NCBI RefSeq assembly: GCF_000472285.1
Contig: NZ_KI421413.1
Span: 444,435-508,434, forward strand
Reading direction: 5' to 3'
DNA length: 64,000 nucleotides
Origin: Desulfuromonas sp. TF
Lineage (GTDB): Bacteria; Desulfobacterota; Desulfuromonadia; Desulfuromonadales; ATBO01
Program-made: the position numbers and the translations under genes
The notes under the pieces: model-generated
Databases searched by the model: none
What the model was told of the DNA's origin: nothing
The model's input: the letters and a program-made list of their open reading frames with translations, nothing else
In this document: positions 21,893 through 39,175 of the stretch, one piece after another
How positions within the stretch are numbered: position 1 is the first letter of the stretch
Layout: each line of letters opens with the position of its first letter

Positions 21893-21924
21893 GGCTCCTC
21901 GGCAGTCGAAACTGCCAAGAAGCC
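21893..21924 (-). promoter_or_regulatory. Intercistronic UUCG-tetraloop hairpin
   Basis: On the minus strand GGCTTCTTGGCAGT pairs over 14 positions (two G.U) with ACTGCCGAGGAGCC around a TTCG loop, between the DUF1329 and Ycf48-like genes. There is no U-tract, so it is not an obvious terminator. It fits a 3'-end-stabilising or processing hairpin that would set different transcript levels within the operon. Confidence 0.6.
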
Positions 21925-21939
21925 TTCACATTGGTCGGA

Positions 21940-23286
21940 TCAGCGCATGCTATCGGCGGCCACGGCCTCTCCTGTATAAAAATCTGCCGGCTTGCGTTTC
22001 ACTACCCGATATGTCTCATCCATGAGCCCCTGTACGGTAGAGGCCGTATTAGCCTGCAGGTTAAAGACGATAACCGGCTTTACCACCATCGCCGGAATCT
22101 TTGGCACCACAAACGGAGTCATCTGAGAGGTTCGCCACAAAGTTCCATTTGCATCGTACCCATCCATCAAAACCATGATCCAGCTATCTTCGTCAAAATA
22201 GAGGCGACGTTTGGGCACCGCATGGCGTTTGCTTTCGGCTATGTTGCCTTCCACGACCCAGACGCGGTGCATCTCCCAGCGCATTTTATCGGGATTGAAG
22301 TGACGCTCTGCATAGCCCTCATCGACACTGGAGGTAACCAACTCGTTATTGTTATAAGGAATGTACATCTCCTGTTTTCCGACAATTTTCCAGTCGTAAC
22401 GATCCGGTGCACCAAAATATCCCTGCACTTCATCAAAGTAGTTGGCGCCCGAAGCGACAAAATCCGGTGTATCGTATCCGACGGTCGGCGCACGCCGGAC
22501 GCGGCGCTGACCTACCAGATACTGCCAGGCTTGGCGGTACTGCTTCGGGTCGATGCTGTCGTGGATAACCAGCGACTCACCTACCTTGAAGGCAGGCGCA
22601 GTGGTGCTGAACCGCTGGAGGAAATACTTCCCGTTCCATTCTTTCGCGGAACCTTCCTTATAGTAATAAGGAAAATCCCAAAAGTTGTCGTTACGCGTCG
22701 CAAGCGTACGGGTTCCATCGGCGGTAATAAGGAGGTTTTTGAATCCGTACTCGATGGCTTCAGCCTCAATACGCAAAAGGTAGTTCCAGACGATCTCCTT
22801 CCCGGATTTAGGAATTGGAAACGGGATGCCGCCGTAGCAACCCTCCATGGAGTTGCCATTGTCGGTCGGTTTGCAGTCGGTGGCGTTTTTTAAGGTATTT
22901 TCATATACATACTGGGGCGCCGCCGAGGTGCGATGCGTGGGATAGACGTCGATGCGGAAGGTGTCAGGGTATTTTTGGAATAAAGCCTGAGTCCCGGGCG
23001 TGAGCTTGTCGGCATATTCTGCCATATTAGCAGCCGTGATCTTGATAAGCGGTTTCTCGTCAGAGAACAGCTTTACGGGAACGTCTCCCTTGGTCTTTCC
23101 CGGAACCGAGGTGATTCCGCCATCCCATTCCGGGATGGTTCCCTCCTGGTTGCCGGCACGCTCACCGCCTAGCGGTGTCAATTTAGTCTTCAGCAATGCC
23201 GCTTCTTCAGCGGGGACGGCACCGTAACCATGCTGACCACCCATGAACAGAGTGACTGCCAATGCAGCTAAGAGTATCTTTTTCAT
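21940..23286 (-). CDS. DUF1329 outer-membrane-associated protein
   Basis: This 448-residue protein has a signal peptide (MKKILLAALAVTLFMGGQHGYG) and matches the DUF1329 layout. AKLTPLGGERAGN-like text near the N-terminus reads TKLTPLGGERAGNQEGTIPEW. Later come RAPTVGYDTPDFVASG (about residues 285-300) and the C-terminal LYFDEDSWIMVLMDGYDANG. DUF1329 folds like LolA/LolB-type lipoprotein-sorting domains and is almost always paired with DUF1302, as here, 20 nt after it. AAGGAG precedes the ATG. A role in moving hydrophobic compounds across the outer membrane is inferred from repeated co-occurrence. Confidence 0.9.
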   Translation of the reverse strand: MKKILLAALAVTLFMGGQHGYGAVPAEEAALLKTKLTPLGGERAGNQEGTIPEWDGGITSVPGKTKGDVPVKLFSDEKPLIKITAANMAEYADKLTPGTQALFQKYPDTFRIDVYPTHRTSAAPQYVYENTLKNATDCKPTDNGNSMEGCYGGIPFPIPKSGKEIVWNYLLRIEAEAIEYGFKNLLITADGTRTLATRNDNFWDFPYYYKEGSAKEWNGKYFLQRFSTTAPAFKVGESLVIHDSIDPKQYRQAWQYLVGQRRVRRAPTVGYDTPDFVASGANYFDEVQGYFGAPDRYDWKIVGKQEMYIPYNNNELVTSSVDEGYAERHFNPDKMRWEMHRVWVVEGNIAESKRHAVPKRRLYFDEDSWIMVLMDGYDANGTLWRTSQMTPFVVPKIPAMVVKPVIVFNLQANTASTVQGLMDETYRVVKRKPADFYTGEAVAADSMR

Positions 23287-23306
23287 TATTTTTTCTCCTT
23301 TAACAG

Positions 23307-24962
23307 TTAGAAGGTGCGCTGAACAGAAAACGAGATAAAATCCCTGTCCCTGTGAAACTGGTCATAGGACAAGGCCCCCGTGGGATCGACCACCCCACTT
23401 GCGTCGCCGAAGTAGTGAGTATAATTGAGCCCTGCCTGCCAGATCTTGCGGAAATCCGCCTTCACTCCGAGACTGACATCGCCGCCGTGTTCAGGCGGCA
23501 TGGCGCCCGCGCCCAGCACGGAAGAACGCCCCTCGATTCCATAGCCGACCCCAATCGGCACCTGAATGTCGGTGCCCGGCATGACTTGAAAGTATTCGGG
23601 CTGGAAGATAAAGCGCACCGCCGTGGCCGAGCGGGTTGCATTGGGATCGAGTTGGTCCGCGTTTTTCTCGATATGGTCGCGATAATTCATCGCCAACTCG
23701 CCTATAAAGGATGCTCCATCCCAGAGGGGACTTGCGGCCAGAACCGAAATGGCGGACACGTTGAGATGCCAGGTTTCTCCCACCGGATAAAGCGGATTGT
23801 GGCGTCCATCGCCGTTGCCAGCAAAATCAAGCACCACATTGCCAGTTGCCAGCAAGGGAGTGTTTCTGCGATAAGAGAGTTCCGCCGCTATGTTCGTTTC
23901 GCCGACCAGGGTGCTCACACTGAAACCGTAGGTCTCGATATCCTGGGCATAGACCAGGGCATAACTGCTTTGCCCGACGAGAGGCTCGACAGGTCGGAAA
24001 TAGAATTGCGGAGTCTTGTCGTGATGGCGTGTGGCATAGAAGCCGTACTCCGCGTCTCCGTGACGAATTTTAAGCTGCACACCACCTTGCCCCGAATTTC
24101 GCCCCTCGATGTCGTCCCCGCGCAGAAGCACCAAGGGCGCCGGTCCGCCAGTGAATATGTCGGGAAAGAAAACCACCTCACCGCCTTCGTCTGCAAAATC
24201 GGCAAAACTGAAGTAGCTGCCCGCGCCCGGCAAGCGCGCTCTCTCCCATTCAAACTGGTAATAAGCGCCCAGTGAAACTTTGGAGCTGAGCTGCAAATTG
24301 GCGGAAATTTGCTCCACAGGACGCAAAATCTCCTTGAATTGAGAGTTCGGCACCGAGAGCAACTTAATGATGTCGGGGGTCGCCTGCGCGGCGGCCACAC
24401 CATTCGCCCCGAAAAACAAAGTCTCTCCATAAAGCTGGGCAAACTGGCCGACCTTCATGCTCAAGCGCTTGTTCAGGGGCCTGAAGCTGCCGAAGACAAA
24501 GTAATCGAGCATCTCCGCCTTTCTTCCATGCAGCTTTTCGGTATCCTTAGTGAACTCATCGTTGTCGACCGAAAGCGCGTTGGGAATAACAAGATCGCTG
24601 TCGGTTTCGTCATTGTAAACAAAGTCATACCAAGCAGCAGCACTCAATCTTAAGCCGTATTTACGTTTATATTTCAGGTCAAATTCGCTTAACAAATCAA
24701 AGCGATTAGATATCAGTCCACGATCGAAGTTGTGATCTCCTGCGTCGATATTTGGGTTATAATTTGTAGCCGAGACATCTTCGTCCAATTTACGTACTCG
24801 TGCTGCGACACTGTATTTGATAGTATTATTGAATCTTGCTGTGATGTCGCTGTTACCAAAATCAATCTCAGTTGCATGTGAATAAATTGGAACACATAAA
24901 GTCAAAGTTAAGACAATCAATGCTATTTTTACCAATCCCTTATTTACACGAAACTCCTCCAT
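23307..24962 (-). CDS. DUF1302 outer-membrane beta-barrel protein
   Basis: This 551-residue protein starts at ATG 24962 behind AAGGGAG. The signal peptide ends near IYSHATE. The rest is beta-strand-rich with alternating polar and hydrophobic residues. It has DUF1302 hallmarks such as KYSVAARV near the N-terminus, LRLSAAAWYDFVYNDETD, and a final strand RDFISFSVQRTF ending in the terminal Phe typical of outer-membrane barrels. It is probably an outer-membrane channel for the pathway substrate. It is the second gene of the operon that starts with the HAD phosphatase. Confidence 0.88.
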   Translation of the reverse strand: MEEFRVNKGLVKIALIVLTLTLCVPIYSHATEIDFGNSDITARFNNTIKYSVAARVRKLDEDVSATNYNPNIDAGDHNFDRGLISNRFDLLSEFDLKYKRKYGLRLSAAAWYDFVYNDETDSDLVIPNALSVDNDEFTKDTEKLHGRKAEMLDYFVFGSFRPLNKRLSMKVGQFAQLYGETLFFGANGVAAAQATPDIIKLLSVPNSQFKEILRPVEQISANLQLSSKVSLGAYYQFEWERARLPGAGSYFSFADFADEGGEVVFFPDIFTGGPAPLVLLRGDDIEGRNSGQGGVQLKIRHGDAEYGFYATRHHDKTPQFYFRPVEPLVGQSSYALVYAQDIETYGFSVSTLVGETNIAAELSYRRNTPLLATGNVVLDFAGNGDGRHNPLYPVGETWHLNVSAISVLAASPLWDGASFIGELAMNYRDHIEKNADQLDPNATRSATAVRFIFQPEYFQVMPGTDIQVPIGVGYGIEGRSSVLGAGAMPPEHGGDVSLGVKADFRKIWQAGLNYTHYFGDASGVVDPTGALSYDQFHRDRDFISFSVQRTF

Positions 24963-25174
24963 TTGCTTGTCTCCCTTCAAATTAATTCGATTTTGCCTCT
25001 CCTGCTCATTGTGCTCCCTCAACCCCTGCTGCATGTGATGCCCTCCCTGCTTCCCGTGCCCAAATTTTCTAAACCTTGGAAAATACCTGTTGCCAGCAAA
25101 CTCTTTCATTTCAGCTTGAGCACAGCACTTTGACCTTCTCCTTTCTCAAATTCGTGAAAATTATCGGCTTCCGC

Positions 25175-26068
25175 TCAAACCGTTAAATCCATTGCCCCTT
25201 TTTCAGAGTTCGCATATAGCTTCAAAACCTCATCTACTCCATCCAGGTGCAAATGGGGCCGTCTCTTCTCCGGCAAGTGCATGAATGCTTCGATGGTCGC
25301 AAGGCCTGAATTGACCGCAATTGCCAGAGAGCCTCCACTGTGCGCCATGGGAACCTCCATCTCAGGATCGTCTCCGACTATCGCCAAATCCTTCAATTTC
25401 ACTTCCAGGCGACGACCGGCATGGCGCAAAGCATGAAGAGAGGGCTTGCCGACTGTCATAACGCGACAGCCGGTCATATCCTTGATCATTGCCGACATGG
25501 CGCGAGAGGGGGCAATGCCTCTGCCATCTGCAGTCGCAAAAAATCGGGTCTGCGAGACGCTGAACATCTTGGCACCGTCCCAAATCGCGTGGCAGGCCGC
25601 CTCCAGCTCGCACATGGTGAATTCGGGATGCCATCCTGCCAGAACTGCATCGACCTGCGCCCTGCCTTTGGGCGGTACGAGTTCAAGGCCGACTTCCTGA
25701 AGAGGGAGTTTCAGCCCGTCACCACCAAGCGCCATGACCCGCCTGTAACCTCGACGGAGGAAAAGGTCGGCTGCACAACTTGCCGGCGTCAATATGGAGT
25801 TGTCCTGGAGGTCAAATCCGACTGTTCGCAGCGCGGCAATGTACTGTTCCGGCGTGCGTGCAGTGCCATTCGTGAACAACACAAAAGGCAATCTTCGGCC
25901 TCCCAAAAAACGGATGAGCTCAATCGCCCCGGGAAGGGGATGGAAACCGTGATTGTTCCGGTTTCCCAGAACCAATGTCCCATCCACGTCAATTACGAAT
26001 CCCTGTATTTCTTGCAGGCGCTGAAGGGGAAACTTCCCTGAATATGGATTTGCAAGTGCATCAAACAT
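25175..26068 (-). CDS. HAD-IIA phosphatase (NagD/4-nitrophenylphosphatase-like)
   Basis: This 297-residue HAD hydrolase has motif I FVIDVDGTLVLGNR near residue 23, motif II LFTNGTARTPEQY, a C2 cap, the lysine in VGKPSLHAL, and motif IV AIVGDDPEMEVPMAHSGG. The start ATG 26068 has GGGAG at the right distance. An upstream in-frame start near 26158 would fall before or at the expected sigma-54 transcript start and is excluded. The substrate is unknown. It is the first gene behind the sigma-54 promoter at 26164-26178, an unexpected lead gene for a catabolic operon. Confidence 0.88.
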   Translation of the reverse strand: MFDALANPYSGKFPLQRLQEIQGFVIDVDGTLVLGNRNNHGFHPLPGAIELIRFLGGRRLPFVLFTNGTARTPEQYIAALRTVGFDLQDNSILTPASCAADLFLRRGYRRVMALGGDGLKLPLQEVGLELVPPKGRAQVDAVLAGWHPEFTMCELEAACHAIWDGAKMFSVSQTRFFATADGRGIAPSRAMSAMIKDMTGCRVMTVGKPSLHALRHAGRRLEVKLKDLAIVGDDPEMEVPMAHSGGSLAIAVNSGLATIEAFMHLPEKRRPHLHLDGVDEVLKLYANSEKGAMDLTV

Positions 26069-26163
26069 CTTTTCTCCCTTTGCATCTGCTACCATCAAGA
26101 GTTCCACAGACTTCCTAATGATTCTGTGGCTGACTGAACCAGAATGCTTGCAAATCAAACATT

Positions 26164-26714: not shown

Positions 26715-27896
26715 TCAACCCCATCCATAGAGTGTAACGACGCAGGCTCCTCCCAAACCCAAATTATGCTGTAGCGCAAAACGGACTCCATCCACCTGCC
26801 GTTGTCCGGCCTCTCCCCGCAACTGGGTGACCAATTCGGTGCACTGGGCAAGTCCCGTCGCGCCCAGCGGATGCCCCTTGGACATCAGCCCCCCGGAAGG
26901 ATTGATGACGTATTTTCCGCCGTATGTATTGTCGCCATTGTTGATCAACCCCTCAGCTTCGCCTTCTGCACACAGCCCTAGCCCCTCGTAGGTGATGACC
27001 TCGTTGGAGGTGAAGCAGTCATGCAACTCCACCACCTTGATCTCTTTCGGACCGATGCCTGCCCACTCATAGACCTGCCGGGCGGCACTGCGCGTCATCT
27101 CCGCACCCGTCAGGCTGATCGGGTCCTGACCACTCGCCTCCCCATCGGTCTGCATCGCCTGCGCAAGGATGCTAACGGCGCGTGTCGCACCATACTTTCT
27201 GGCGAAGGCTTCGCTGCAGACAATTGCCGCTGCAGCTCCGCACGATGGAGGACAGCATTCCAGACGGGTGAGGCAGGGAGCATAGACACTTGGGGAAAGC
27301 AGGACTTCCTCTATTGTCAGGGGCTTATTGAACAACGCATATGGATTGTTCTTCGCATGCTTGCGAGTCTTGACCGCCACCTTCGCGAATATATCGGAAT
27401 TGGCCCCCGTCTTTTCGATATAGGCCTTAGCAGCCGACCCGAACAGGCGAATTGCATTTGTCGCAGGAGCGGCGTCAGGGACAAGCACCTCCAACCGGTC
27501 CTCCAAATCCCGCAAAGGCGACGTCCGGTCATTCCAGACAGGATCTAGAGGACCGGGCCGCATCTCCTCGAAACCGACCGCCAAAGCGCAATCGATCATC
27601 CCTGATAGAATGGCCTGCCGCGCAAGCATCAACGCGGACGATCCGGACGAGCAATTATTGTTGACGTTGATGACAGGTATACCCGTCATGCCGACGCGGT
27701 ACAGGGCGGCTTGTCCGCAAGCGCTGTCTCCGAAGACGTAACCGGCAAAAGCCTGCTGAACATCGCCGTAGGAAATGTCGGCATCGGCCAATGCAGCTTT
27801 CACCGCTTTTCCGGCCATGACTTCGTATGGCTCGTGCGCACCGGGCTTGGCGAATTTGACCATGCCGACACCGATTACCTTGACGGTTGAACTCAC
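26715..27896 (-). CDS. Thiolase / SCP-x-type acyltransferase, copy 2
   Basis: This 393-residue thiolase-like enzyme of the lipid-transfer/SCP-x branch starts at GTG 27896 behind AGGAG (TTG 27899 is the alternative). It has Cys82 (NNNCSSGSSAL), the HDCFTSNEV histidine near residue 290 and SKGHPLGATG near residue 335. It is expected to cleave or form a 3-oxoacyl-CoA. It is the last gene of the operon that begins with the Tm-1-like and biotin carboxylase genes. It is therefore the best candidate for cleaving an aroylacetyl-CoA to aroyl-CoA and acetyl-CoA. Confidence 0.88.
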   Translation of the reverse strand: MSSTVKVIGVGMVKFAKPGAHEPYEVMAGKAVKAALADADISYGDVQQAFAGYVFGDSACGQAALYRVGMTGIPVINVNNNCSSGSSALMLARQAILSGMIDCALAVGFEEMRPGPLDPVWNDRTSPLRDLEDRLEVLVPDAAPATNAIRLFGSAAKAYIEKTGANSDIFAKVAVKTRKHAKNNPYALFNKPLTIEEVLLSPSVYAPCLTRLECCPPSCGAAAAIVCSEAFARKYGATRAVSILAQAMQTDGEASGQDPISLTGAEMTRSAARQVYEWAGIGPKEIKVVELHDCFTSNEVITYEGLGLCAEGEAEGLINNGDNTYGGKYVINPSGGLMSKGHPLGATGLAQCTELVTQLRGEAGQRQVDGVRFALQHNLGLGGACVVTLYGWG

Positions 27897-27952
27897 CAAA
27901 AACTCCTATCGAGAGGTGTCCGACTTACCGAAGAGACGGAGGGCCGAGGATA

Positions 27953-28699
27953 TCAGCGGGACAGATAGCCACCGTCTACGGCATAATAGTTGCCCGTGAT
28001 GAAGCTCGCCCTGTCGCTGCTGAGCCACGCCGCCAAATTGGCGACCTCCTCGGTCTCACCCATTCTGCCCAAGGCATGCATTGATTCAAGCTGACTTCTG
28101 ACGTCTTTGGGAAGGTTGTTGACCAAAGTGGTCTTGATAAAGGCCGGACCGACCGAATTGCAGCGGATTCCCTTGGAACCGTATTCGAGGGCAACATTCT
28201 TGGTCAAACCAACGACGCCGTGTTTGGCGGCGACATAGGGGGAAATCTCTTCTAGGCCCACTTGACCCAGAATCGATGCGATGTTGACAATCGAGCCGCC
28301 GCCATTATTTAGCATTGCAGGGATCTGCGCCCGGACACCATAGAAAACTCCAGTCAGATTGATGTCGATTACCTGCTGCCATGTCTCAGGGGTATGCTCT
28401 GCGGTAAGTCGAAATTCTCCACTGATGCCGGCATTGTTGCAAGCAATATCAAGACGTCCGAACTCCTCGCAGGCAGCAGCGACAACAGCCTCATGGTTCT
28501 CGGGATGGGTTACATCAAGGTGTCTATAGATAGCCTGCCCTCCGGCATCATTGATCATTTCGACGGTTTTCTTTCCTTCTTCGTCGTTACAATCAGTCAC
28601 AATCACCTTAGCCCCCTCTTTCGCAAAGACGATGGCAATTGTGCGACCGATGCCGGCTGCACCCCCAGTAACAAGCGCGACCTTGTCTTTGATCAGCAT
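27953..28699 (-). CDS. Short-chain dehydrogenase/reductase, copy 2
   Basis: This 248-residue classical SDR has TGGAAGIGR (11-19), CNNAGISG, the catalytic Ser and [11 protein letters not shown] (Tyr-x3-Lys), the C-terminal [18 protein letters not shown], and AAAGGAG before the ATG. It is an NAD(P)-dependent alcohol or ketone oxidoreductase. Sitting between the second thiolase and the Tm-1/carboxylase genes, it is the other candidate for hydroxyphenyl-alcohol oxidation. Confidence 0.92.
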
Positions 28700-28757: not shown

Positions 28758-30029
28758 TCAAATTTCACTTCGCTGTTGCGATTTTATGTTCCCTGAATAC
28801 AGACGAACGAACTCATCCACCGCAGCCCGGGCGAACTCCGGCGTATAGAGATGCAGGTCCACCTCCTGAATCGCCTCCTTGTTGTGCAACTTCTCCCGGA
28901 GGCGGTTGACGAATGCGGCATTTGCCTCAGGATCGTAGAGAGGCTTTCCCTCCTGGTCGATGGACGACCAGCCCTTGCGCGGAATCAGGAAGCTGAATGG
29001 GCCCCTGGACTGATTGAGCCGCTCGGCAATCACCTCGGCGGCCTGACGCAATTCTTCTGCGCTGGTGCGCACCTGGATGCGGAAGGAGTCCTGAACGAAT
29101 TGCGCTCGGCCCTTCCTTTCGGCCAATTTGTCCGGCCGCCCGCCGTAACTTAGAAAATCCAGACCGCAAGGCGCCAGCACCGCCGGAACGCCCTTGCGCA
29201 CAGCAGCCATCAGGCGCTCGGAGCCGGGATTGCGGTTTCCGTCGAACAGGTTCTCGGTAATGCCTCCGGTACAGAGGTCGATAACCCCTTGGAAGAGACC
29301 GTCGTCGATCATGTCATCCATGGCCTTGTCCCCCTTGCCCTGAGCATGACAGACCACCGGGACAAATCCGGCATCCTCCAGGAACCGGACCGAGGCCTGT
29401 GCCGTAACCTCGGCAAAACCGAAGGCCGAAATTGCAATCACCGGCCGATCGAAGGTGAAGTCCGGACCCTGGGTCATCTCGACCATGCCGCAGATGGCCC
29501 CCACGGCATTGATGATCTGGGCCTTGAGCAACGGGTTCATTTTCACCACATCAAGCACGGTGTGGTGCATGGTGATGTCGTGGGTACCGATGCACTTTTC
29601 GGTGTAACGCGGTAAAGAAGCAATCGGCGTAGCCATCAGCTTGGGCATGCCGAACGGCAGTTGCTGCATGACGCCGGTTGAAACAAGACTCGAGGTTGCG
29701 CCGCCAATGCCGATGACACCATGCACCTTGCCTTGATTGAGGAGATCAGTGACGATCGCCGCCGCCCCATTGATCTGGTTGTTTGTCGCAGCTTCTCGGT
29801 TGGTGCGGTAATACTCACGCACTGTTTCGATGGGCAGCCCTCCCCTTGAAGCCACCTCCTCGCATCGGATATCCCCCGGAACCGGCGGCGGCTCTTCCAT
29901 GCTGAAATCGAGCAGGATGGGATTGTGCCCGCGCCCCCGGATCAGATCCCGGACGAAGAGGATGTCTTCCCCCCGCGTATCGAGATTGCAAATAACCACG
30001 ATTCCTTTCTTCATATCACTTTTCTCCAT
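28758..30029 (-). CDS. Tm-1-like (UPF0261) protein, copy 1
   Basis: This 423-residue protein starts at ATG 30029 (AAGGAG). The N-terminal Tm-1-like ATP-binding half (about 1-180) has GIGGATSSLVSTGVMQ and MATPIASLPRYTE. The C-terminal half (about 190-400) has the UPF0261 signatures ISAFGFAEVTAQASVRFLED, VCHAQGKGDKAMDDM and ALAPCGLDFLSYGG. Proteins of this family are found in bacteria, fungi and plants; tomato Tm-1 binds a viral replication protein, but the bacterial role is unknown. A second copy lies at the other end of the same operon (33817-35094). Both look complete. Confidence 0.88.
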   Translation of the reverse strand: MEKSDMKKGIVVICNLDTRGEDILFVRDLIRGRGHNPILLDFSMEEPPPVPGDIRCEEVASRGGLPIETVREYYRTNREAATNNQINGAAAIVTDLLNQGKVHGVIGIGGATSSLVSTGVMQQLPFGMPKLMATPIASLPRYTEKCIGTHDITMHHTVLDVVKMNPLLKAQIINAVGAICGMVEMTQGPDFTFDRPVIAISAFGFAEVTAQASVRFLEDAGFVPVVCHAQGKGDKAMDDMIDDGLFQGVIDLCTGGITENLFDGNRNPGSERLMAAVRKGVPAVLAPCGLDFLSYGGRPDKLAERKGRAQFVQDSFRIQVRTSAEELRQAAEVIAERLNQSRGPFSFLIPRKGWSSIDQEGKPLYDPEANAAFVNRLREKLHNKEAIQEVDLHLYTPEFARAAVDEFVRLYSGNIKSQQRSEI

Positions 30030-30075
30030 GCCCCTGCTCCTTGGTGACTGGGACTTCTCGGCCTGCAGAACGGTC

Positions 30076-30477
30076 TTAGAATTCAAACGTTTTCCTCCGC
30101 TCCGGGGCAAAACTGTCGATCGAGGCGTTGCCGTGCTCCAGATAGAAGATCTTGAAATCGGGATTCTCAGGAGTCTGATAAATATCCTTGAGCATGGGTG
30201 TGGTTAGAAAGCATCGCTCCTTGCGACTGATATCCTCGTCGAAACGGATCTCCCCACCGATTCTCAGCCAGCGCATATCCTCGGTGGCCTTTGTGTATTC
30301 GACCAGGGGCTTTGCAAGGAGCTGCCTGTAGACGTCCTTGGTCCGGGAGGTGCAAAAATAGAAACGTCCGTTCTCCTCGAACATGAATGCAAAGGGCCTG
30401 ACGCGCGGCCTTCCCTCTTCTATGGTGGCCAGGCTGCCAAAACCCGGCTCCGTGAGCATCTCGATGACTTCCTTCAT
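30076..30477 (-). CDS. Pyridoxamine 5'-phosphate oxidase-like flavin protein
   Basis: This 133-residue PPOX/FMN-binding split barrel starts at ATG 30477 behind AAGGAGG. It has GSLATIEEGRPRVRPFAF near residues 14-31, FYFCTSRTKDVYRQL, and VEYTKATEDMRWLRIGGEIRF. Members bind FMN, F420 or haem-like cofactors and many reduce small molecules. The substrate is not known. It lies between the Tm-1-like gene and the carboxyltransferase gene in the same operon. Confidence 0.8.
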   Translation of the reverse strand: MKEVIEMLTEPGFGSLATIEEGRPRVRPFAFMFEENGRFYFCTSRTKDVYRQLLAKPLVEYTKATEDMRWLRIGGEIRFDEDISRKERCFLTTPMLKDIYQTPENPDFKIFYLEHGNASIDSFAPERRKTFEF

Positions 30478-30517
30478 GGGTGGCCTCCTTGTCGATATCA
30501 TCTGATTGGCGCCAGAT

Positions 30518-31981
30518 TCAGGCGCTACGAAGTTCCAGCCGAAAATCGTCCTTTTCTATCACGATGTCGGAACCTTCGGGACACTCCTGCATCCCCTCGA
30601 GCAGCTTAAGAAGCGGCCTGAGATCCGGGTTATAATGGCGCTTGGCCGGCCCGGCGGCGATCATCGCGTTCACCTCCTCGGCCGGCATGGTCGCCCGCAG
30701 GAGGAACTCCTCGTCTGAGATGTTCGCAGGAAATCGCTTGCGCAGCTCGGAGAGGGGGGGGGACGGCGGTTCGGCCATGATCTCCTTGGCCCGTGGTTTG
30801 GAGAGAATTCGATCCTTAACCTCCGGATCGATCGGGGCGATGGGGCGGCCGAAGATACCCAGAACATAGCGGATCACCTGGTCGGAGACGTTGACGTAGC
30901 GTTCCTTGCCGATCACGTTATACAGGGCTTGGGAACAGACCATCTGGGGAAAGGGCGTTACCATGATGGGATACCCCAGCTCCGCTCGCACCTGGATGGC
31001 CTCGGTCATTACCTCTTCGAATCGGTGTTCGAGATGGATTTCGGCGAGCTGTCTCCGTGTCGTGGACATGACGCCGCCAGCCACCTGATGACGCAGAAAC
31101 GAGGCATCGTACTCCTGGGCCACCCCGGCCGGAAGCCCTTCCGCCTTGGCCAGCCGGGTAAAATAGTCGGAGACCCGTCCAAGCGCTCCGTCGTCGATCC
31201 TAACCGTATGCCCCATCTCACGCAGATTGACCAGCAGACGATGGACGTTGGGGAGCGATGAGCCGCTGCCCAGCGGCCCACAGGCCACATGGAGAACTTC
31301 CACACCAAGCTCTGCGGCTGCCAGATAGCTGAGGGATGGAAGACCAATCGTACAGTGGGAGTGAAGCTCCAGCGGCTTGCCGCCCAGGTTCCCAACTATC
31401 GCCGGGACCAGTGTGCGAGCCCGCTCGGCAGTGAGAAGGCCTGAAGGATCCTTGATGTAGGCGCGATCGATATCCGGACAGCCGGCAATCCGTGCAGCTA
31501 GACCGCCATAGAAGTCATCATCATGCATCTCGCTGATAGTGTAGGTCAGCGCAACGATGACTTCTGCAGCACCTGCCTTGCGACACATACGCGCCGTTTC
31601 GAGAATCGCATCGACATCCAACATCGGTTCGAGCACAACGATGCGTGAAATACCGTTAGCGACAAATCGGTCGTAAACCAGTTGCATGAAATCGGGCGAC
31701 TGCCGCTCCCAAGAGAAGAACCGCAGTCCTGTTCCGATGACTTGCAATGGTGTATTCGGCATCGCCGCGCGTGCCAGGCGTATACGCTCCCAGGGGTCTT
31801 CCTTGAAGGTGCGTACCCCCATACCCATGCTGGTGCTCGACGTAAAGTCAATGGCGTGAAACCCCACCCGGTCGACCACGGGAGCAATCTGAAGAACCTG
31901 CGCGGTATTCAGGCCCACCGCCCCCCACAGGCTCTGGTTGCCATCGCGCATGGATACATCGACAAGTTGTATTTCAGCCAT
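30518..31981 (-). CDS. Biotin-dependent carboxyltransferase subunit (PycB/HMGL-like)
   Basis: This 487-residue DRE-TIM metallolyase-type carboxyltransferase is of the kind found in pyruvate carboxylase B and oxaloacetate decarboxylase alpha. It has VSMRDGNQSLWG (metal Asp13), the lysine of YIKDPSGLL (Lys177) where carbamylated Lys sits in the family, and metal His207/His209 in LHSHC. The C-terminal conserved carboxylase domain covers about 300-420, and the protein lacks a built-in biotin domain. It overlaps the biotin carboxylase gene by 8 nt. The acceptor is unknown. A hydroxyphenyl ketone, as in EbN1, is inferred from pathway context; pyruvate is the conventional alternative. Confidence 0.85.
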   Translation of the reverse strand: MAEIQLVDVSMRDGNQSLWGAVGLNTAQVLQIAPVVDRVGFHAIDFTSSTSMGMGVRTFKEDPWERIRLARAAMPNTPLQVIGTGLRFFSWERQSPDFMQLVYDRFVANGISRIVVLEPMLDVDAILETARMCRKAGAAEVIVALTYTISEMHDDDFYGGLAARIAGCPDIDRAYIKDPSGLLTAERARTLVPAIVGNLGGKPLELHSHCTIGLPSLSYLAAAELGVEVLHVACGPLGSGSSLPNVHRLLVNLREMGHTVRIDDGALGRVSDYFTRLAKAEGLPAGVAQEYDASFLRHQVAGGVMSTTRRQLAEIHLEHRFEEVMTEAIQVRAELGYPIMVTPFPQMVCSQALYNVIGKERYVNVSDQVIRYVLGIFGRPIAPIDPEVKDRILSKPRAKEIMAEPPSPPLSELRKRFPANISDEEFLLRATMPAEEVNAMIAAGPAKRHYNPDLRPLLKLLEGMQECPEGSDIVIEKDDFRLELRSA

Positions 31982-33341
31982 TGAAGCCTCCTGCCTCTCG
32001 CTTTTTCTCTAGAAACCCCGGGAAGTAGGCCGTAGTGACCCCACCGGCCATAAAGGCGCTTTGATTCATCAGCTCTAAATGCATCGGCAAATTAGTCGTA
32101 ACTCCTCCTATTTCACATCTGGAGAGGGCTCGACTCATATTCTCGATCGCTGCGGAACGGTCTTCGCCGTGCACGATCATTTTGGCGATCATGGAGTCGT
32201 AAAATGGGGGAATTTGTGCCCCTTCCTGCATGTGCGTGTCGACCCGGATTCCTTGACCTGCAGGGAATATGGCGGTCTTGACCTCACCCGGACTCGGGCA
32301 GAAGTTCCTCGTCCAATCTTCTGCATTGATCCGACATTCGATGGCATGGCCTTGGAACCTGACCTCCTCCTGAGTCAGCCGTAGCGGGCGTCCTTCGGCG
32401 ACAACAATCTGCTCAGCGACCAGATCGAGACCGCAGATGGCCTCGGTGACCGGGTGCTCGACCTGAATACGGGCGTTCATTTCGAGGAAGTAGAAGGTGT
32501 CGCGCTCGCAATCAACCAGAAATTCCACCGTACCCAGACCCCTGTATTTCAGATGCCTGGCGAAGGCGACAGCCGCCCGATGCATCTCCTCCCGCAGGCT
32601 GTCACGCAGATTAGGCGCCGGGGCCTCTTCGACGAGCTTCTGATACCGTCGCTGGACCGAGCAGTCGCGAGTGCCCAAATGGATAATATTCTCACCGTCG
32701 CCGAGCACCTGCACCTCAACGTGGCGCCCCGCTGCGACAAATCGCTCCAGATAGACTCGGGGATCGCCGAACGCCGCCTGCGCCTCGGCGATGGCCATAT
32801 CAATTGTCTCCAGCAGTTTGCCGGGCTCGTGGACCTGCTTCATTCCCCGACCGCCGCCGCCACCGACCGCCTTGATCAACAGGGGCCATCCGATCTGTTC
32901 CGCCAGCGCGAGAACTTCATCCATATTGCCAACTTCGCCGCCAGGCACCACCGGCAGACCGGCCTCCATTGCATTGCTGCGAGCCTTAAGCTTATCCCCG
33001 ACCGCATCGAGTTGCTCCACAGTAGGTCCGATAAAGACGATTTCAGCCTCGCCACACGCCTTAGCCAGTTGCTGGTTTTCCGAGAGGAAACCATACCCGG
33101 GGTGAATGGCGTCCGCCTTTGCCGCTTCCGCGGCAGCAATCACAGCAGATATGTTGAGGTAGCTCTCGGAGGACCTGGCCGGTCCGATGCAGATCGTATA
33201 GTCCGCCATACGCGCAGCCAATGAGTCGAGATCGGCCTCCGAGGCCGCCAGCACTGTTTCAATCCCGAGACGCTGACAACTGCGCACAATGCGTACCGCA
33301 ATTTCGCCGCGGTTTGCGATGAGAATGCGTCTCAGAATCAT
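31974..33341 (-). CDS. Biotin carboxylase (AccC-like)
   Basis: This 455-residue biotin carboxylase charges the biotin of the small carrier subunit with bicarbonate and ATP. It begins RRILIANRGEIAVRI, and has IHPGYGFLSEN near residue 80, the ATP-grasp glycine loop KAVGGGGGRGM (about 157-167), the catalytic EMNARIQVEHPVTE near 290, and RINAEDWTRNF. Length is standard. The start overlaps the carrier gene by ATGA, and the end overlaps the carboxyltransferase by 8 nt. This points to a coupled, stoichiometric complex dedicated to this pathway. Confidence 0.93.
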   Translation of the reverse strand: MILRRILIANRGEIAVRIVRSCQRLGIETVLAASEADLDSLAARMADYTICIGPARSSESYLNISAVIAAAEAAKADAIHPGYGFLSENQQLAKACGEAEIVFIGPTVEQLDAVGDKLKARSNAMEAGLPVVPGGEVGNMDEVLALAEQIGWPLLIKAVGGGGGRGMKQVHEPGKLLETIDMAIAEAQAAFGDPRVYLERFVAAGRHVEVQVLGDGENIIHLGTRDCSVQRRYQKLVEEAPAPNLRDSLREEMHRAAVAFARHLKYRGLGTVEFLVDCERDTFYFLEMNARIQVEHPVTEAICGLDLVAEQIVVAEGRPLRLTQEEVRFQGHAIECRINAEDWTRNFCPSPGEVKTAIFPAGQGIRVDTHMQEGAQIPPFYDSMIAKMIVHGEDRSAAIENMSRALSRCEIGGVTTNLPMHLELMNQSAFMAGGVTTAYFPGFLEKKREAGGFNG

Positions 33342-33820
33342 AAGGCCTCCGGCTGAACACGCATCAGGACGGTTTCATTATGGGCAAGCTGGGCATCTTC
33401 CAGGCAGATCTCGAGAACCTTGCCGCACACCCCGGCATGTACCGAATTCATCAATTTCATCGTTTCGACAATCGCGACCACGGTTTCCTTCTCCACCCGG
33501 CTACCGACCTCGACAAAGGGCGGCGCACCCGGTTTCGGAGAGCGGTAGAATGTTCCGACCATCGGTGTTCGAATTTCGAACAGACCGTCCTCGGCAGCAT
33601 TCGCTGCCTTCGGTGCGGCACAGGCGGCCGACGCAGTCTTTGGACCACCTACAGGCGGCAAAAGGTTCGGTGCGGACAGCTCCTTGCTCGACTGCACCCA
33701 TTCGCTGCCCTTGCGACGCAACGTTAAGCTGAATCGTTCGGTCTGTAGGTGCATTTCGTTGAAGGAGGAGGATTTGAGCAGCTGCAATATGTCCTGCACG
33801 TCCTTGTGATCAATTTTCAT
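33338..33820 (-). CDS. Biotin carboxyl carrier protein
   Basis: This 160-residue carrier has an AccB-like N-terminal helix region, a Pro/Ala-rich linker (about 50-80) and a biotinyl domain. The acceptor is Lys122 in VETMKLMNS; the usual AMKM is here TMKL, as in several non-acetyl-CoA carboxylases. The ATG at 33820 overlaps the Tm-1-like stop (ATGA). It would shuttle carboxybiotin between the 31974-33341 and 30518-31981 products. Confidence 0.9.
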   Translation of the reverse strand: MKIDHKDVQDILQLLKSSSFNEMHLQTERFSLTLRRKGSEWVQSSKELSAPNLLPPVGGPKTASAACAAPKAANAAEDGLFEIRTPMVGTFYRSPKPGAPPFVEVGSRVEKETVVAIVETMKLMNSVHAGVCGKVLEICLEDAQLAHNETVLMRVQPEAL

Positions 33821-35094
33821 GAGCAAAAACCCCCTATCTGCGTGATATTCAAATCTGTGCGAGCGGCTTTTTCAAGCCCTTGATGATGGAAAACAAGCAC
33901 CTGTTCGACAATGGCGTCGGCAAATGACTCATCGTTGATGTGGTGCGGGAACTCTTTGACGGGCACCCCGGTGGGCATTACCTTTTTCAGGTGCTCGGCA
34001 AATACCGGCGGCAGTGAGGGATCATGCAGATGCCCCTGTTCGCTGTCGTGAGCGGAGAAACCGAGCATCGGAACGAAGAAGGAGACAGGCCCCTTTGCCT
34101 CCTGGATGAGTCCTGCCATGTGCTCGGCCAGGCGCCTGAACTCCTCGCCCTCCGCGCGCACTGCCGTCAAGGCCGCGTTGTGAATGTGGTAGCGTTTACC
34201 TGGAAAACGCGCTCGGGCATCTTCAATCGGACCTGCGACCATGAAATCTACGTTGCCCGGCGCAAAGATCGTGGGAACCCCTTTGGCGAGAGCCGCCTTG
34301 CATCGGTCGGGGCCGGCGCTGCAGAGCCCTTCATTAAGAAAATCATTGACCTCGACCAGAGACAGGTCCACCACGACCGACACATTCTGTTCTTTGACCA
34401 TTTCATCCATGACCATCCCGCCGGTACCCAGCGTGTGGAAGACCATGACTTCAAACCCTTTCTGCTCCAGGGAACTGCGGACCCGGACACTGCAACGGTC
34501 TGTCGTCCCCAACGTGGAGATCGCGACCAGCGGTTTCTCGGAAACGACAGTGCTTTTATACCCATGGGCCATGCCCGCCACCGCCAGGGCACCGTTGCGA
34601 AACACGCTGCGAGTGACCCTGTTCAAGCCCGAAATGTCGCAGACGGAGTTGACCATGACGATGTCCTTGGTGCCGACAAATCCCTTCGTCATGCCGGAGG
34701 CCATGGTTGAGACCATCACTTTGGGCAGGCCGACAGGAAAACTTCGCATGACGGCCGTGCCGAGCGTTGTCCCCATGGAACCTCCCACGCCTATGATGCC
34801 GTTCAGCCCAACCCTCTGGTGCAGCTCTTGGGCGCACTTGATGGCGCCCTCTACCATCACCGCCTGGCACTTGCCCTCGTGATTGAGGGCCCGGATCTCA
34901 GGCAAAGTGCTCCCGGCGGCTTCCGCCACCTGCTCGGGGGTGATGGCGGCCCCCCCTTCGATGGTTCTGCGGATGCTGGGGTCCATCAGATATACGTCGA
35001 CTCCCCTCTCCTCGAGACACTCTCGGACGAAGTCGGCCTCCGCCTTCTTGGTGTCAAGCGTCATGATCAGCAACACTTTCGGTTTGATTACCAT
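33817..35094 (-). CDS. Tm-1-like (UPF0261) protein, copy 2
   Basis: This 425-residue protein has the same two-domain plan as the 28758-30029 product: GVGGSMGTTLGTAVMRSFPVGLPKVMVSTMASG in the Tm-1-like half, VMVFHTLGTGGMVMDEM and TIFAPGNVDFMVAGP in the C-terminal half. It is clearly a paralogue, not an identical copy. It is the first gene behind the sigma-54 promoter at 35218-35232 and overlaps the biotin carrier gene by ATGA. Such tight coupling to the carboxylase suggests an accessory or enzymatic role in the carboxylation step; nothing is proven. Confidence 0.88.
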   Translation of the reverse strand: MVIKPKVLLIMTLDTKKAEADFVRECLEERGVDVYLMDPSIRRTIEGGAAITPEQVAEAAGSTLPEIRALNHEGKCQAVMVEGAIKCAQELHQRVGLNGIIGVGGSMGTTLGTAVMRSFPVGLPKVMVSTMASGMTKGFVGTKDIVMVNSVCDISGLNRVTRSVFRNGALAVAGMAHGYKSTVVSEKPLVAISTLGTTDRCSVRVRSSLEQKGFEVMVFHTLGTGGMVMDEMVKEQNVSVVVDLSLVEVNDFLNEGLCSAGPDRCKAALAKGVPTIFAPGNVDFMVAGPIEDARARFPGKRYHIHNAALTAVRAEGEEFRRLAEHMAGLIQEAKGPVSFFVPMLGFSAHDSEQGHLHDPSLPPVFAEHLKKVMPTGVPVKEFPHHINDESFADAIVEQVLVFHHQGLEKAARTDLNITQIGGFCS

Positions 35095-35768: not shown

Positions 35769-36779
35769 TCAAACATTGATTACGATTTTTCCCATATGGG
35801 CGCCACTTGCCAGATAATCATACCCCTCCCTGGCCTCCTCGAAGGAGAAGGTTCGTCCGACAAAAGGCCGGAGTTCCGCCTGGGATATCGCCCTGTTCAT
35901 TGCCTCGAACTGGTCTCTGGAACCGACGTATATACCTTGGAGACGGATACCACGACTAATGATGGGACGAGGATCGACCTGCCCGCCCCCTGCTACCACA
36001 CCGATGACTGCAATGAATCCCCCCACGCGTACGGCCTTTATCGACCGCTCCAACGTACCGCCCCCGCCGACTTCCACGACGATGTCAACCCCATGTCCTC
36101 CGGTCGCCTTCAGGACTTCCTCGTCCCAATCGGGGGTTCTGCGGTAGTTGATTAAAGTATCCGCGCCCAACTCTCTCGCACGCTTCAGCTTATCGTCGCT
36201 GCTCGATGCGACAATGACATGCGCTCCATGCATTTTGGCAAACTGCAGCGCAAACAGGCTAACCCCGCCGGTGCCAAGCAATAAAACGGTTTCACCGGCA
36301 CGTATGCGTCCCGACTCCGCCACGGCGCTCCAGGCCGTGACTCCCGCGCAGGGGAGGGTCGCCGCCTCTTCGAAAGTGAGATGACGTGGCGTGTGGATGA
36401 TGCCGCGCTCCGGAAGAACTACATACTCGGCCAACATGCCGTCCACAGACCCGCCCAGAGCCTTTGCCGTTGCCTCTCGAGAAATCGCGCCTGAGCTCCA
36501 ATTCTGAAAGAACGTACCGGCGACACGATCTCCGATCTGGAAGCGGCTCACGTCTGGACCGACGGCGACGACCTCGCCGGCGCCATCGGAAAGGGGGATC
36601 ACTGATGACTTTAATCCTGCCGGATATCGATCGGCGGCGACAAGCAGATCGCGGAAATTCAGGGAAGTGGCGTGAACCCTGATCTTGACTTCTCCATGGC
36701 CCACTTCGGGCTCAGGTCGTACAGTGGTCAATTCCAGGCCGGCGGGGCCAATCGCTTCCTTGATTTCATAGGCTTTCAT
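35769..36779 (-). CDS. Medium-chain dehydrogenase/reductase (quinone-reductase-like)
   Basis: This 336-residue MDR protein starts at ATG 36779 (GGAGG). A GroES-like N-terminal domain contains GEVKIRVHATSLNFRDLLVA and GDRVAGTF; structural-zinc cysteines are absent. The Rossmann domain has LLLGTGGVSLFALQFAKMHGA near residues 155-175. It should reduce or oxidise an alcohol, ketone or enoyl substrate with NAD(P)H. It lies in the same direction as the CoA-transferase genes and is a third candidate for the alcohol-to-ketone step. The exact substrate cannot be inferred. Confidence 0.85.
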   Translation of the reverse strand: MKAYEIKEAIGPAGLELTTVRPEPEVGHGEVKIRVHATSLNFRDLLVAADRYPAGLKSSVIPLSDGAGEVVAVGPDVSRFQIGDRVAGTFFQNWSSGAISREATAKALGGSVDGMLAEYVVLPERGIIHTPRHLTFEEAATLPCAGVTAWSAVAESGRIRAGETVLLLGTGGVSLFALQFAKMHGAHVIVASSSDDKLKRARELGADTLINYRRTPDWDEEVLKATGGHGVDIVVEVGGGGTLERSIKAVRVGGFIAVIGVVAGGGQVDPRPIISRGIRLQGIYVGSRDQFEAMNRAISQAELRPFVGRTFSFEEAREGYDYLASGAHMGKIVINV

Positions 36780-36897
36780 GGGGGTCCTCCATGGCTGAAC
36801 CGCAGACCCATCCTGTCCGGAGGGCATATCAACTAGAGTCGATTTTTTTCTGGTGAAAAAGAGAATCTCACACGGGTTCTAACGAAAACCTCCACAT

Positions 36898-37587
36898 CTA
36901 TTGCGACCCTTGCGCCGAAACCAGAGGACTGTCCATTTGCCGTTCTTGCAATTGGTCTAGGATTATCAGTTCCGGTTCGGTACATGCCTGGACATCCTGA
37001 GTGCTTACTCCTGGAGCGACCTCGATCAGCACAAGTCCATTTTTAGTCACGTCCATAACGGCGAGATCTGTGATAATGCGGTTTACAACGCCTTTGCCAG
37101 TCAAGGGAAGAGAGCATCTGTTCAAAATCTTGGGGGCTCCATGCTTGCTGACGTGATCCATGACCACGACAATGCGTTTCGCACCGTATACCAGGTCCAT
37201 CGCACCGCCCATGCCTTTAACCATCACTCCAGGTATCATGAAATTGGCAAGGTCGCCGTTGGCGGCAGCTTCCATGCCTCCAAGTATGGCCAGGTCAATA
37301 TGCCCGCCGCGGATCATGGCGAACGACTCGGCGCTACTGAACAGGACGGCGCCAGGCGCCATGGTGGTGTACTGCTTGCCGGCATTGACCAGATCAATAT
37401 CCTCCTCCCCCTCTTTGGCTGGTGGGCCCATCCCGAGCAGTCCGTTTTCAGACTGGAAAAACACCTGTTTCCCTTCCGGCAGGTACTTGGTAACCAGCGT
37501 GGGGATGCCTATCCCAAGGTTCACGTAATAGCCGTCTTCAATCTCCAGCGAAGCGCGCTGGGCAATCTGTTCTCTAGTCCAAGGCAT
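36898..37587 (-). CDS. 3-oxoacid CoA-transferase subunit B
   Basis: This 229-residue class I CoA-transferase beta subunit has the active-site glutamate Glu47 in QSENGLLGMGP, GIGIPTLVTKYLP near residue 25, and DHVSKHGAPKILNRC. It pairs with the subunit A gene 22 nt upstream. It transfers CoA from succinyl-CoA or acetyl-CoA to a 3-oxo acid. In this island the natural acceptor could be an aroylacetate made by the biotin carboxylase. A conventional acetoacetate or 3-oxoadipate role remains possible. Confidence 0.92.
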   Translation of the reverse strand: MPWTREQIAQRASLEIEDGYYVNLGIGIPTLVTKYLPEGKQVFFQSENGLLGMGPPAKEGEEDIDLVNAGKQYTTMAPGAVLFSSAESFAMIRGGHIDLAILGGMEAAANGDLANFMIPGVMVKGMGGAMDLVYGAKRIVVVMDHVSKHGAPKILNRCSLPLTGKGVVNRIITDLAVMDVTKNGLVLIEVAPGVSTQDVQACTEPELIILDQLQERQMDSPLVSAQGSQ

Positions 37588-37609: not shown

Positions 37610-38293
37610 TCAAAATTGTAGTTGATCTATTCCATGCCCGGATTGGCTGAACTCGATAAGGCGTTGGACATAGATGCTGGGCGTGTGGATCTGCTCCGGA
37701 ATAAGATCTCCGATTCCCACCAGCTCCTCAACTTCCGCGATGGTTGTGATACCGGCGGCGGCCATCATCGGATTGAAATTCATCCCGGTCCGCCGGTAGA
37801 TGAGATTTCCGAGGCGGTCTCCCTTGTAGGCCTTGATCAAGGCGAATTCAGCTCGCAAACCGGTTTCGAGGAGGTACTCCTTCCCGTCGAAAATGCGGGT
37901 TTCTCTTCCTTCGGCAATAATGGTCCCTGCGCCGGCCCGGGTATAAAAGGCAGGGATTCCGGCTCCGCCCGCCCTGACCCGTTCGGCGATCGTTCCCTGA
38001 GGTACAAGTTCGACTTCCACCTCCCCGGCCAAAAACTGCCGTTCGAATTCGGGATGCCCCCCCAGATATGAACAAACGACCTTCCTGATCTGCCTGTTCT
38101 TCAGCAGAATGCCGAGTCCAAACCCCTCTTCGCCGCAGTTATTGGAGATGATAGTAAGATCCTTCACCCCTTTGTCCTTCAACGCCTGAATGAGGTTGCA
38201 CGGTGTTCCGACCGGTCCAAACCCTCCCACCAACAAGGTAGCGCCGTCGTTAATTCCTTCCACGGCTTCTTCAACGGATGTGTAGACACTCAT
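37610..38293 (-). CDS. 3-oxoacid CoA-transferase subunit A
   Basis: This 227-residue alpha subunit has the glycine-rich LLVGGFGPVGTPCNLIQAL motif at about residues 21-39, followed by LTIISNNCG and YLGGHPEFERQFLAGEVEVELVPQGT, typical of SCOT/PcaI. CGGAGG precedes the ATG. It is co-transcribed with subunit B. Confidence 0.92.
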   Translation of the reverse strand: MSVYTSVEEAVEGINDGATLLVGGFGPVGTPCNLIQALKDKGVKDLTIISNNCGEEGFGLGILLKNRQIRKVVCSYLGGHPEFERQFLAGEVEVELVPQGTIAERVRAGGAGIPAFYTRAGAGTIIAEGRETRIFDGKEYLLETGLRAEFALIKAYKGDRLGNLIYRRTGMNFNPMMAAAGITTIAEVEELVGIGDLIPEQIHTPSIYVQRLIEFSQSGHGIDQLQF

Positions 38294-38341: not shown

Positions 38342-39175
38342 TCAGAACCGGCTGCCAACTCGCCCTCCTTGCCAACTCCCGCAGAATGTCAGATCGGCAG
38401 GCAGCGCTTCCCTTCCTGGAACTTTGCTGAAGCCGAAATGGGAGCCCAATCTGGTGGAAATGATTTCTCCTGCCGCCTTCAGGGCTGGGAGCAGATGGTT
38501 CTCGCAATGTTCATTGGAAAAGCGGAACTCCGGGCCCACGACACAGAGGCTGCCGGGAACTTTGCCTTGAGCATTGAAAAGCGGTACGGCCAGGCAGGCC
38601 GTTCCTGCTCCGATGCACTCCGAGTCGAGGCCCGCTCCCTCCTTCCGAATGGCGACCAATTCGTCCTGCAGGGAAGAAGGAGTATCTTCTTCAGCTCTCC
38701 CCGTCAGGTCCGTTCCGAAAGCCAGAAGAACCTTTCCGGCCACGGTTTTGGTCAGCGGGTAAGCGTTCCCTACAAAGGAGACAGTGCCGACCACCTGGGT
38801 CGTATCGACCATATCCAGCATCAGAACCTCTCGGTTGCGGGGGACAGCCAGGTAGACGGCTTCATCACAGGCGCGCGCCAGGCGCTCCATGACCGGCTTG
38901 GCCTTTGTCAACAACCCCATGCGCGAAAGGATTTTCTGCCCCGTCACGTAGGCGGCAAGCCCCAGCCGGTATCTGCCAGTGCGTTCTGCCTTCTCGATAT
39001 ATCCCCTCTCCTCAAAGGTGGCCAACAATCGAAAGACGTAGGATTTATCTATCTCCAGCATCTCACTCAGCCTGGTGATGCGCACCTCCCCATCGATTTC
39101 CCCAAACGCTTCCAGAATGGTCAGGGCATTTTCTACCGCCTGGATGGAATAGGACCTTTTGTCTCTGTTCAGCAA
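38342..39175 (-). CDS. IclR-family transcriptional regulator
   Basis: This 277-residue regulator starts at TTG 39175 (AAGGAG, 6-nt gap). A winged helix spans about residues 9-75 (VRITRLSEMLEIDKSYVFRLLATFEERGYIEK), then the effector domain (about 85-250), ending with a longer, arginine- and glycine-rich tail than usual. IclR proteins often control aromatic-acid genes and bind small organic acids. Located just before the CoA-transferase genes in the same direction, it may add local control to the sigma-54 regulon. Confidence 0.9.
   Translation of the reverse strand: MLNRDKRSYSIQAVENALTILEAFGEIDGEVRITRLSEMLEIDKSYVFRLLATFEERGYIEKAERTGRYRLGLAAYVTGQKILSRMGLLTKAKPVMERLARACDEAVYLAVPRNREVLMLDMVDTTQVVGTVSFVGNAYPLTKTVAGKVLLAFGTDLTGRAEEDTPSSLQDELVAIRKEGAGLDSECIGAGTACLAVPLFNAQGKVPGSLCVVGPEFRFSNEHCENHLLPALKAAGEIISTRLGSHFGFSKVPGREALPADLTFCGSWQGGRVGSRF

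Follow-up and report, generated by a model that had tools for sequence, protein, structure and literature searches.

A MarK-type UPF0261 protein as probable kinase of a putative 4-hydroxyacetophenone carboxylation operon in Desulfuromonas sp. TF, and its diverged paralogue

A 64,000-nt stretch of the Desulfuromonas sp. TF genome (NZ_KI421413.1, positions 444,435-508,434), hereafter the window, encodes two UPF0261 (Tm-1-like) proteins in one gene cluster with a biotin-dependent carboxylase. We label the gene at 33817-35094 (-) UPF1 and that at 28758-30029 (-) UPF2; all coordinates are positions of the window. UPF1 is probably a kinase of the MarK type that prepares a phenolic ketone for carboxylation, whereas UPF2 has diverged from it at the residues that define this type. 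The genes concerned are the following:

38342-39175, minus strand: candidate IclR-like transcriptional regulator (open reading frame, judged by sequence alone)
37610-38293, minus strand: 3-oxoacid CoA-transferase subunit A (PF01144, TIGR02429)
36898-37587, minus strand: 3-oxoacid CoA-transferase subunit B-like (open reading frame, paired with subunit A in syntenic loci)
35769-36827, minus strand: zinc-type medium-chain dehydrogenase/reductase (MDR) oxidoreductase (PF00107/PF08240)
33817-35094, minus strand: UPF1, UPF0261 (Tm-1-like), MarK-type, proposed 4-hydroxyacetophenone kinase (PF06792 and PF23189)
33338-33820, minus strand: biotin carboxyl carrier protein, BCCP (PF00364, TIGR00531)
31974-33341, minus strand: biotin carboxylase subunit, BC (PF00289/PF02786/PF02785)
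30518-31981, minus strand: HMGL-type carboxyltransferase, CT, of Hpe/Xcc type (PF02436, residues, tree)
30076-30501, minus strand: PNPOx-like small protein between CT and UPF2 (PF01243; kept in relatives)
28758-30029, minus strand: UPF2, divergent UPF0261 paralogue (PF06792 and PF23189, separate clade)
27953-28699, minus strand: short-chain dehydrogenase/reductase (SDR), proposed 1-(4-hydroxyphenyl)ethanol dehydrogenase (4ure/4urf match)
26715-27899, minus strand: SCP-x-type thiolase, proposed 4-hydroxybenzoylacetyl-CoA thiolase (NF006102, PF22691)
25175-26158, minus strand: NagD-like HAD-IIA phosphatase, proposed HpeD equivalent (PF13344, HAD-IIA matches)
21940-25109, minus strand: DUF1329- and DUF1302-like genes of an export module that runs on to 18271 (YCF48, MMPL)
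16345-17877, minus strand: p-cresol methylhydroxylase (PCMH)-type flavoprotein, candidate 4-ethylphenol methylenehydroxylase (1wve match)

Both paralogues carry the two UPF0261 domains over their full length and with matching fold, and the PF06792/PF23189 scores of 200/225 bits for UPF1 and 157/216 bits for UPF2 lie far above the Pfam cut-off of 27, confirming the sequence-only reading that two UPF0261 genes bracket the carboxylase. They are ~ 29% identical and are the only UPF0261 genes of the whole genome. The overlap with the carboxylase genes that had been ascribed to the pair holds for UPF1, the stop codon of which overlaps the BCCP start within the ATGA at 33817-33820; BCCP, BC, and CT succeed each other with overlaps 3' of UPF1. 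It does not hold for UPF2, which lies downstream of CT behind the PNPOx-like gene and is set apart by short gaps. Geobacter argillaceus and two metagenome-assembled genomes of Geobacteraceae/Desulfuromonadaceae repeat this gene order with proteins 63-93% identical, and the arrangement is therefore far beyond chance.

The closest solved relative of UPF1 is PDB entry 9mpy (E 9e-139, 54-56% identity), titled as Saro_1862, a UPF0261 domain protein of Novosphingobium aromaticivorans with bound acetovanillone. UPF1 groups with 9mpy at a support of 100/100 and displays the clade-invariant residues GGSMGT, STMASG, E248, HxHN, and ND, while 9mpy itself is 84-93% identical to Novosphingobium proteins directly preceding BCCP-BC-CT-HAD genes. 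Acetovanillone catabolism in N. aromaticivorans is opened by the single-component kinase MarK, which replaces the two-component HpeHI/AcvAB (PMC13101465). Judging from strain, substrate, and timing, Saro_1862 is very probably this aryl kinase. UPF1 is very probably a kinase phosphorylating a ketone intermediate ahead of CO2 addition, and would be a new member of the kinase type reported in 2025, within an anaerobic pathway variant. Structure models confirmed the fold, yet did not yield ligand contacts. Literature on UPF0261 or Tm-1-like ATP-binding proteins by those names gave no bacterial function; the earlier remark that this function is unknown is nevertheless outdated for the UPF1 clade (MarK, PMC13101465; 9mpy), and the suggestion of ketone handling proves right for UPF1, whose best-matching solved structure contains a bound phenolic ketone.

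Recurrence of the arrangement was assessed by a UPF1-clade alignment scan of an 84,980-species genome collection, in which the best 80 relatives among the matches listed define 80 loci, a set that by its design favors the UPF1 clade. These loci come from Geobacter, Sphingomonadales, Burkholderiales, Pseudomonas, Acidobacteria, and Actinobacteria. A BCCP, BC, or CT homologue lies within 10 kb of UPF1 in 77/80, and one of the three others, L103, begins at the UPF1 gene. A HAD phosphatase stands beside UPF1 and carboxylase in 57 of the 80. Homologues of the zinc-type oxidoreductase (35769-36827) occur near UPF1 in 47/80 loci, often divergently oriented in sphingomonads. The anticipated co-occurrence of UPF0261 with HMGL carboxyltransferases is thus borne out for the UPF1 clade and fails for the family at large. 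Among plasmid records, 339 contain a UPF0261 match and 32 a carboxyltransferase match, and UPF0261 genes on plasmids (Rhizobium, Sinorhizobium, haloarchaea) mostly reside in records without CT; a UPF0261-wide carboxylase link was rejected. The family also has members that occur in pairs with TBST proteins (PMC5028733). The carboxylase association is a property of the UPF1 and UPF2 clades, not of the entire family.

Comparison with related operons offers a further level of detail about the position of UPF1. The operon of Rhizobium leguminosarum BT01 encodes a phosphoenolpyruvate (PEP)-utilizing enzyme, a PEP/pyruvate-binding protein, BCCP, BC, CT, HAD, and an acetoacetate-CoA ligase, an order resembling the Hpe operon (PMC9618137). 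HpeHI-type genes also occupy the kinase slot in Rhodococcus JS3073, and a single Tm-1-like gene takes the HpeHI position in Pseudomonas putida YC-AE1 and Sphingomonas bisphenolicum AO1. HpeHI-type genes were found in no UPF1 locus among the 80, and no HpeH/PpsA-type kinase was found in the operon of the window or elsewhere in its genome, the best match being confined to the swivel domain within a protein of 824 aa. UPF1 occupies the slot of the unrelated kinase HpeHI, and the two never occur together in the loci examined. In the CT tree, two separate clades each mix UPF1-type and HpeHI-type members, indicating that the kinases were swapped at least twice. HpeCBA accepts the ketone for carboxylation only in its phosphorylated form (PMC9618137). 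Two unrelated kinases have been exchanged in front of one carboxylase type.

The neighboring genes hint at the substrate. The SDR at 27953-28699 matches 4ure/4urf, deposited as cyclohexanol dehydrogenase, over its full length with 68.5% identity (E 5e-111). We take 4ure to be ChnA/Hped of Aromatoleum aromaticum EbN1. The EbN1 ChnA has been renamed Hped (PMC4630880), and the 4-ethylphenol route of this strain has matching steps (PMC10715001). The flavoprotein at 16345-17877 matches 1wve (E 1.5e-128); Telmatospirillum (L169) has a 77% identical homologue close to its UPF1 cluster, and there too a homologue of the SDR adjoining this flavoprotein. A second PCMH-type flavoprotein is encoded at 48019-49608 (+), the best PDB matches of the two being 1wve and 1dii. 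The presence of two such flavoproteins in the window suggests separate p-cresol and 4-ethylphenol branches. Each of the three annotated plasmid copies of the UPF1 cluster belongs to a strain described as degrading bisphenol A (P. putida YC-AE1, S. bisphenolicum AO1, and Sphingobium A3); bisphenol A yields 4-hydroxyacetophenone, which YC-AE1 degrades. In loci L116, L117, L118, and L132, the bisphenol A block of pobA, a carotenoid-oxygenase-like gene, and the UPF1-carboxylase cluster includes genes that match pBAR1 with 100% identity across several genera, which suggests recent transfer.

We consider it likely, with a probability of roughly 0.85, that the locus represents an anaerobic 4-ethylphenol/4-hydroxyacetophenone operon, a variant of the Xcc/Hac system of Aromatoleum and the Hpe/Acv systems of Rhodococcus and Sphingobium, with UPF1 as MarK-type kinase. 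The PCMH-type flavoprotein would convert 4-ethylphenol to 1-(4-hydroxyphenyl)ethanol, which the Hped-like SDR would oxidize to 4-hydroxyacetophenone. UPF1 would then phosphorylate the phenolic OH at the expense of ATP, followed by carboxylation of the acetyl group by BCCP, BC, and the HMGL-type CT, and removal of the phosphate by the NagD-like phosphatase, which belongs to the HpeD type by its HAD-IIA domain and its position near the cluster. Activation of the resulting 4-hydroxybenzoylacetate by the CoA-transferase would allow the thiolase to release 4-hydroxybenzoyl-CoA and acetyl-CoA.

Several points weigh against this assignment. What was observed is gene content, gene order, homology, and residues kept or lost, from which all reactions in this organism are deduced, and the equation of MarK with Saro_1862 is itself a deduction, though a strong one. 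The phosphatase lies 557 bp past the thiolase and the flavoprotein ~ 9 kb off, so that a single transcript is a supposition. The substrate could be a close ketone such as 4-hydroxypropiophenone or acetovanillone. Lastly, UPF2 and the HAD phosphatase coexist in the window, at odds with a simple replacement of one by the other.

UPF2 displays different features. It forms a clade separate from UPF1 and differs at UPF1-invariant sites by S106>A, G108>S, T130>P, G226>D, E248>G, HxHN>YxQD, and ND>YT. The GGSxG loop, STxASG, G226, E248, HxHN, and ND, at least 95% conserved in UPF1, are swapped for conserved residues of UPF2's own, placing it outside the MarK type as defined by clade-invariant residues. 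UPF2 thereby departs from UPF1 and Tm-1 at most of the positions that those two hold invariant, which probably belong to the pocket. The fold, in contrast, is kept in structure models, with Z scores of 35-36 to Tm-1 and 30 to 9mpy.

The genomic partners of UPF2 were surveyed in 271 sampled genomes from the host's class. Close relatives there (at least 66% identity) are of two kinds, residing either in UPF1 clusters (78-82%) or in phenylphosphate operons. Once Burkholderiales and Telmatospirillum are included, the order PpsA-PpsB-UbiD-UPF2-(NUDIX)-CBS is found in 13 loci, and in L168 UPF2 lies divergently beside the same genes. Phenylphosphate synthase/UbiD genes accompany the close relatives outside UPF1 clusters in all 14 readable cases, L178 being cut by contig ends; the HMGL carboxylase is absent from these operons. 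On its short contig, L178 has the phenol-type UPF2 directly next to another UPF0261 gene, which shares 41% identity with UPF1. More distant UPF2-like genes occur in CT clusters with PpsAB/HpeHI-like kinases (L046, L047, L060, L061, and L063) or alongside UPF1 (L089, L091-L093, and L115). In L046 (10549-15106), two hydantoinase_A-type (acetophenone-carboxylase-like) genes lie downstream of HMGL CT, UPF2-like, and PpsAB-like genes. No UPF2-clade gene was found genome-wide in eight tested genomes with UPF1 but a UPF2-less cluster. A description of this association pattern was not found in the literature.

Replacement of the invariant residues, together with the occurrence in HMGL-less Pps/UbiD operons, leaves a role of UPF2 in HMGL carboxylation unsupported. 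The earlier proposal of substrate activation by phosphorylation is well supported for UPF1 (kinase slot, 77/80 loci, 9mpy) and unsupported for UPF2. From its genomic context, the odds are about even that UPF2, a companion of aryl-phosphate pathways in anaerobes, acts as a functionally diverged paralogue at the aryl-phosphate stage rather than as a second copy of the UPF1 kinase.

The distribution of HAD phosphatases could refine this role. In CT clusters flanked by 4 kb or more of sequence in both directions, with duplicate loci removed by hand among those bearing UPF2, an HpeD-like HAD gene is present in 58/64 clusters without UPF2 vs 5/15 with UPF2 (window counted). Fisher's test gives a p of 1e-5, and 1e-4 with related loci collapsed, neither value being properly phylogeny-corrected. 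Distant UPF2 relatives mostly stand in for the HAD phosphatase, while both are present in the window, Geobacterales, and Telmatospirillum. A HAD motif was not found inside the UPF2 phenol operons, a suggestive result only, as known HAD genes of L085 and L083 escaped the same scan. Since the HAD gene is rarer in UPF2-bearing CT clusters, which is no proof, we tentatively entertain that UPF2 is an aryl-phosphate-consuming counterpart, removing the activating phosphate or returning it to ADP or another acceptor in place of HpeD or PpcD. This specific function is rather unlikely; if true, UPF2 would save ATP when anaerobes carboxylate phenols, by the biotin-dependent as well as the UbiD-dependent route.

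An equally doubtful alternative makes UPF2 a second aryl kinase acting on phenol, p-cresol, or catechol. It would agree with the fold shared with UPF1 and Tm-1 (Z 30-36) and with the close relatives in phenol operons; these operons, however, already encode the phenylphosphate synthase PpsAB, and E248, H303, H305, N306, N387, D388, and the GGSxG loop are replaced in UPF2. Less probable still is a single ATP-dependent kinase built from UPF1 and UPF2 as its two subunits, with UPF2 serving regulation or substrate specificity. The paralogues share an operon, are neighbors or near each other in L089, L091-L093, L095, and L115, and UPF2 has lost UPF1-invariant residues, a kind of loss often seen in non-catalytic subunits. 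Yet UPF2 is missing from most UPF1 loci, its absence from the eight genomes mentioned above and from aerobes weakens the case for an obligate subunit, and its relatives are found without UPF1 beside PpsAB-type kinases.

Returning to UPF1, we find it very improbable that its substrate is a non-phenolic ketone (acetone, alkanone), enol-phosphorylated as in acetone/acetophenone carboxylases. The CoA-transferase and thiolase are compatible with acetone-type pathways, but 9mpy binds acetovanillone, the context is phenolic (Hped-like SDR, PCMH flavoproteins, bisphenol A plasmids with pobA), and hydantoinase_A-type subunits are absent among the operon proteins scanned. Acetone/acetophenone-carboxylase-type chemistry was likewise rejected, as these proteins include no HyuA-type gene product.

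The carboxyltransferase itself keeps the metal Asp, the Lys, and two His, whereas the pyruvate-anchoring Arg is replaced by Thr. Thr occupies this column in 70/75 UPF1-type CTs; Arg is found in 0/75 of them and in 0/7 HpeHI-type CTs, as opposed to PycB and OadA, which carry it. The CT of the window groups in the tree with Hpe-type CTs, here the HpeHI-operon CTs of L082 and L083 standing in for HpeB/XccC, apart from PycB/OadA, and shares with them the Thr and a TG(L/M)RF motif. Despite the HMGL-like and PYC_OADA domain matches, an ordinary pyruvate/2-oxoacid carboxylase or oxaloacetate decarboxylase, with the UPF0261 genes as mere operon companions, is scarcely credible, and a conventional 2-oxoacid carboxylase was rejected on the active-site Thr and the tree position.

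Some further features surround these clusters. The PNPOx-like protein (30076-30501) is kept in Geobacterales clusters, and a PNPOx-domain open reading frame adjoins UPF2 in the Burkholderiales phenol operon L189. The DUF1302/DUF1329 genes are 58-65% identical to a pair beside the P. putida YC-AE1 cluster; a set resembling the DUF1302-DUF1329-YCF48-MMPL module (18271-25109) has been termed 'nanopod' cluster (PMC13101534). Three UPF0261 genes surround a single CT-BC pair in L056, and in L070 and L071 (G028 and G351) BC and BCCP genes occur with at least three HMGL carboxyltransferase paralogues per cluster.

Altogether, the assignment would widen the range of the UPF0261 aryl-kinase route, taking in anaerobic Geobacterales and bisphenol A degraders, provide candidate genes for 4-hydroxyacetophenone consumption in the latter, and link a protein pair of 'unknown function' to a pathway concrete enough to be tested. 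UPF2 stands out as well, since it occurs in the kind of phenylphosphate operon for which the carboxylation mechanism is unsettled: those of Geobacter metallireducens and Desulfatiglans anilini are without some Thauera subunits (PMC6114531).

Among known systems, MarK/Saro_1862 (9mpy) shares with UPF1 the UPF0261 fold at 54-56% identity, and its Novosphingobium orthologues directly precede BCCP-BC-CT-HAD. N. aromaticivorans, however, is an aerobe with acetovanillone-type substrates and no UPF2, whereas the window adds a CoA-transferase, a thiolase, an Hped-like SDR, and UPF2. The Xcc/Hac system of A. aromaticum EbN1 resembles the window in the reaction order of PCMH-type hydroxylase, Hped, biotin carboxylase, and thiolase, but employs HpeHI homologues (PMC9618137) and the acetoacetyl-CoA-ligase-like AcsA instead of UPF1 and CoA-transferase. 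Hpe of R. rhodochrous GD02 and Acv of S. lignivorans SYK-6 likewise combine kinase, biotin carboxylase, and NagD-like phosphatase; their kinase HpeHI/AcvAB is two-component and PEP-synthase-like, and Hpe ends with a beta-keto hydrolase in contrast to the thiolase of the window. Tomato Tm-1 (3wrw/3wrx/3wry) has the same fold (Z 39 to UPF1, 35-36 to UPF2) and invariant residues common to UPF1, although it serves virus resistance in a plant and carries a fused TIM-barrel domain; we know of no carboxylation role for it. The Pps/Ppc phenol operons share the aryl-phosphate chemistry and a 65-72% identical UPF2 gene that follows or neighbors PpsA-PpsB-UbiD, but rely on UbiD carboxylase and PpsAB where the window encodes a biotin carboxylase and UPF1.

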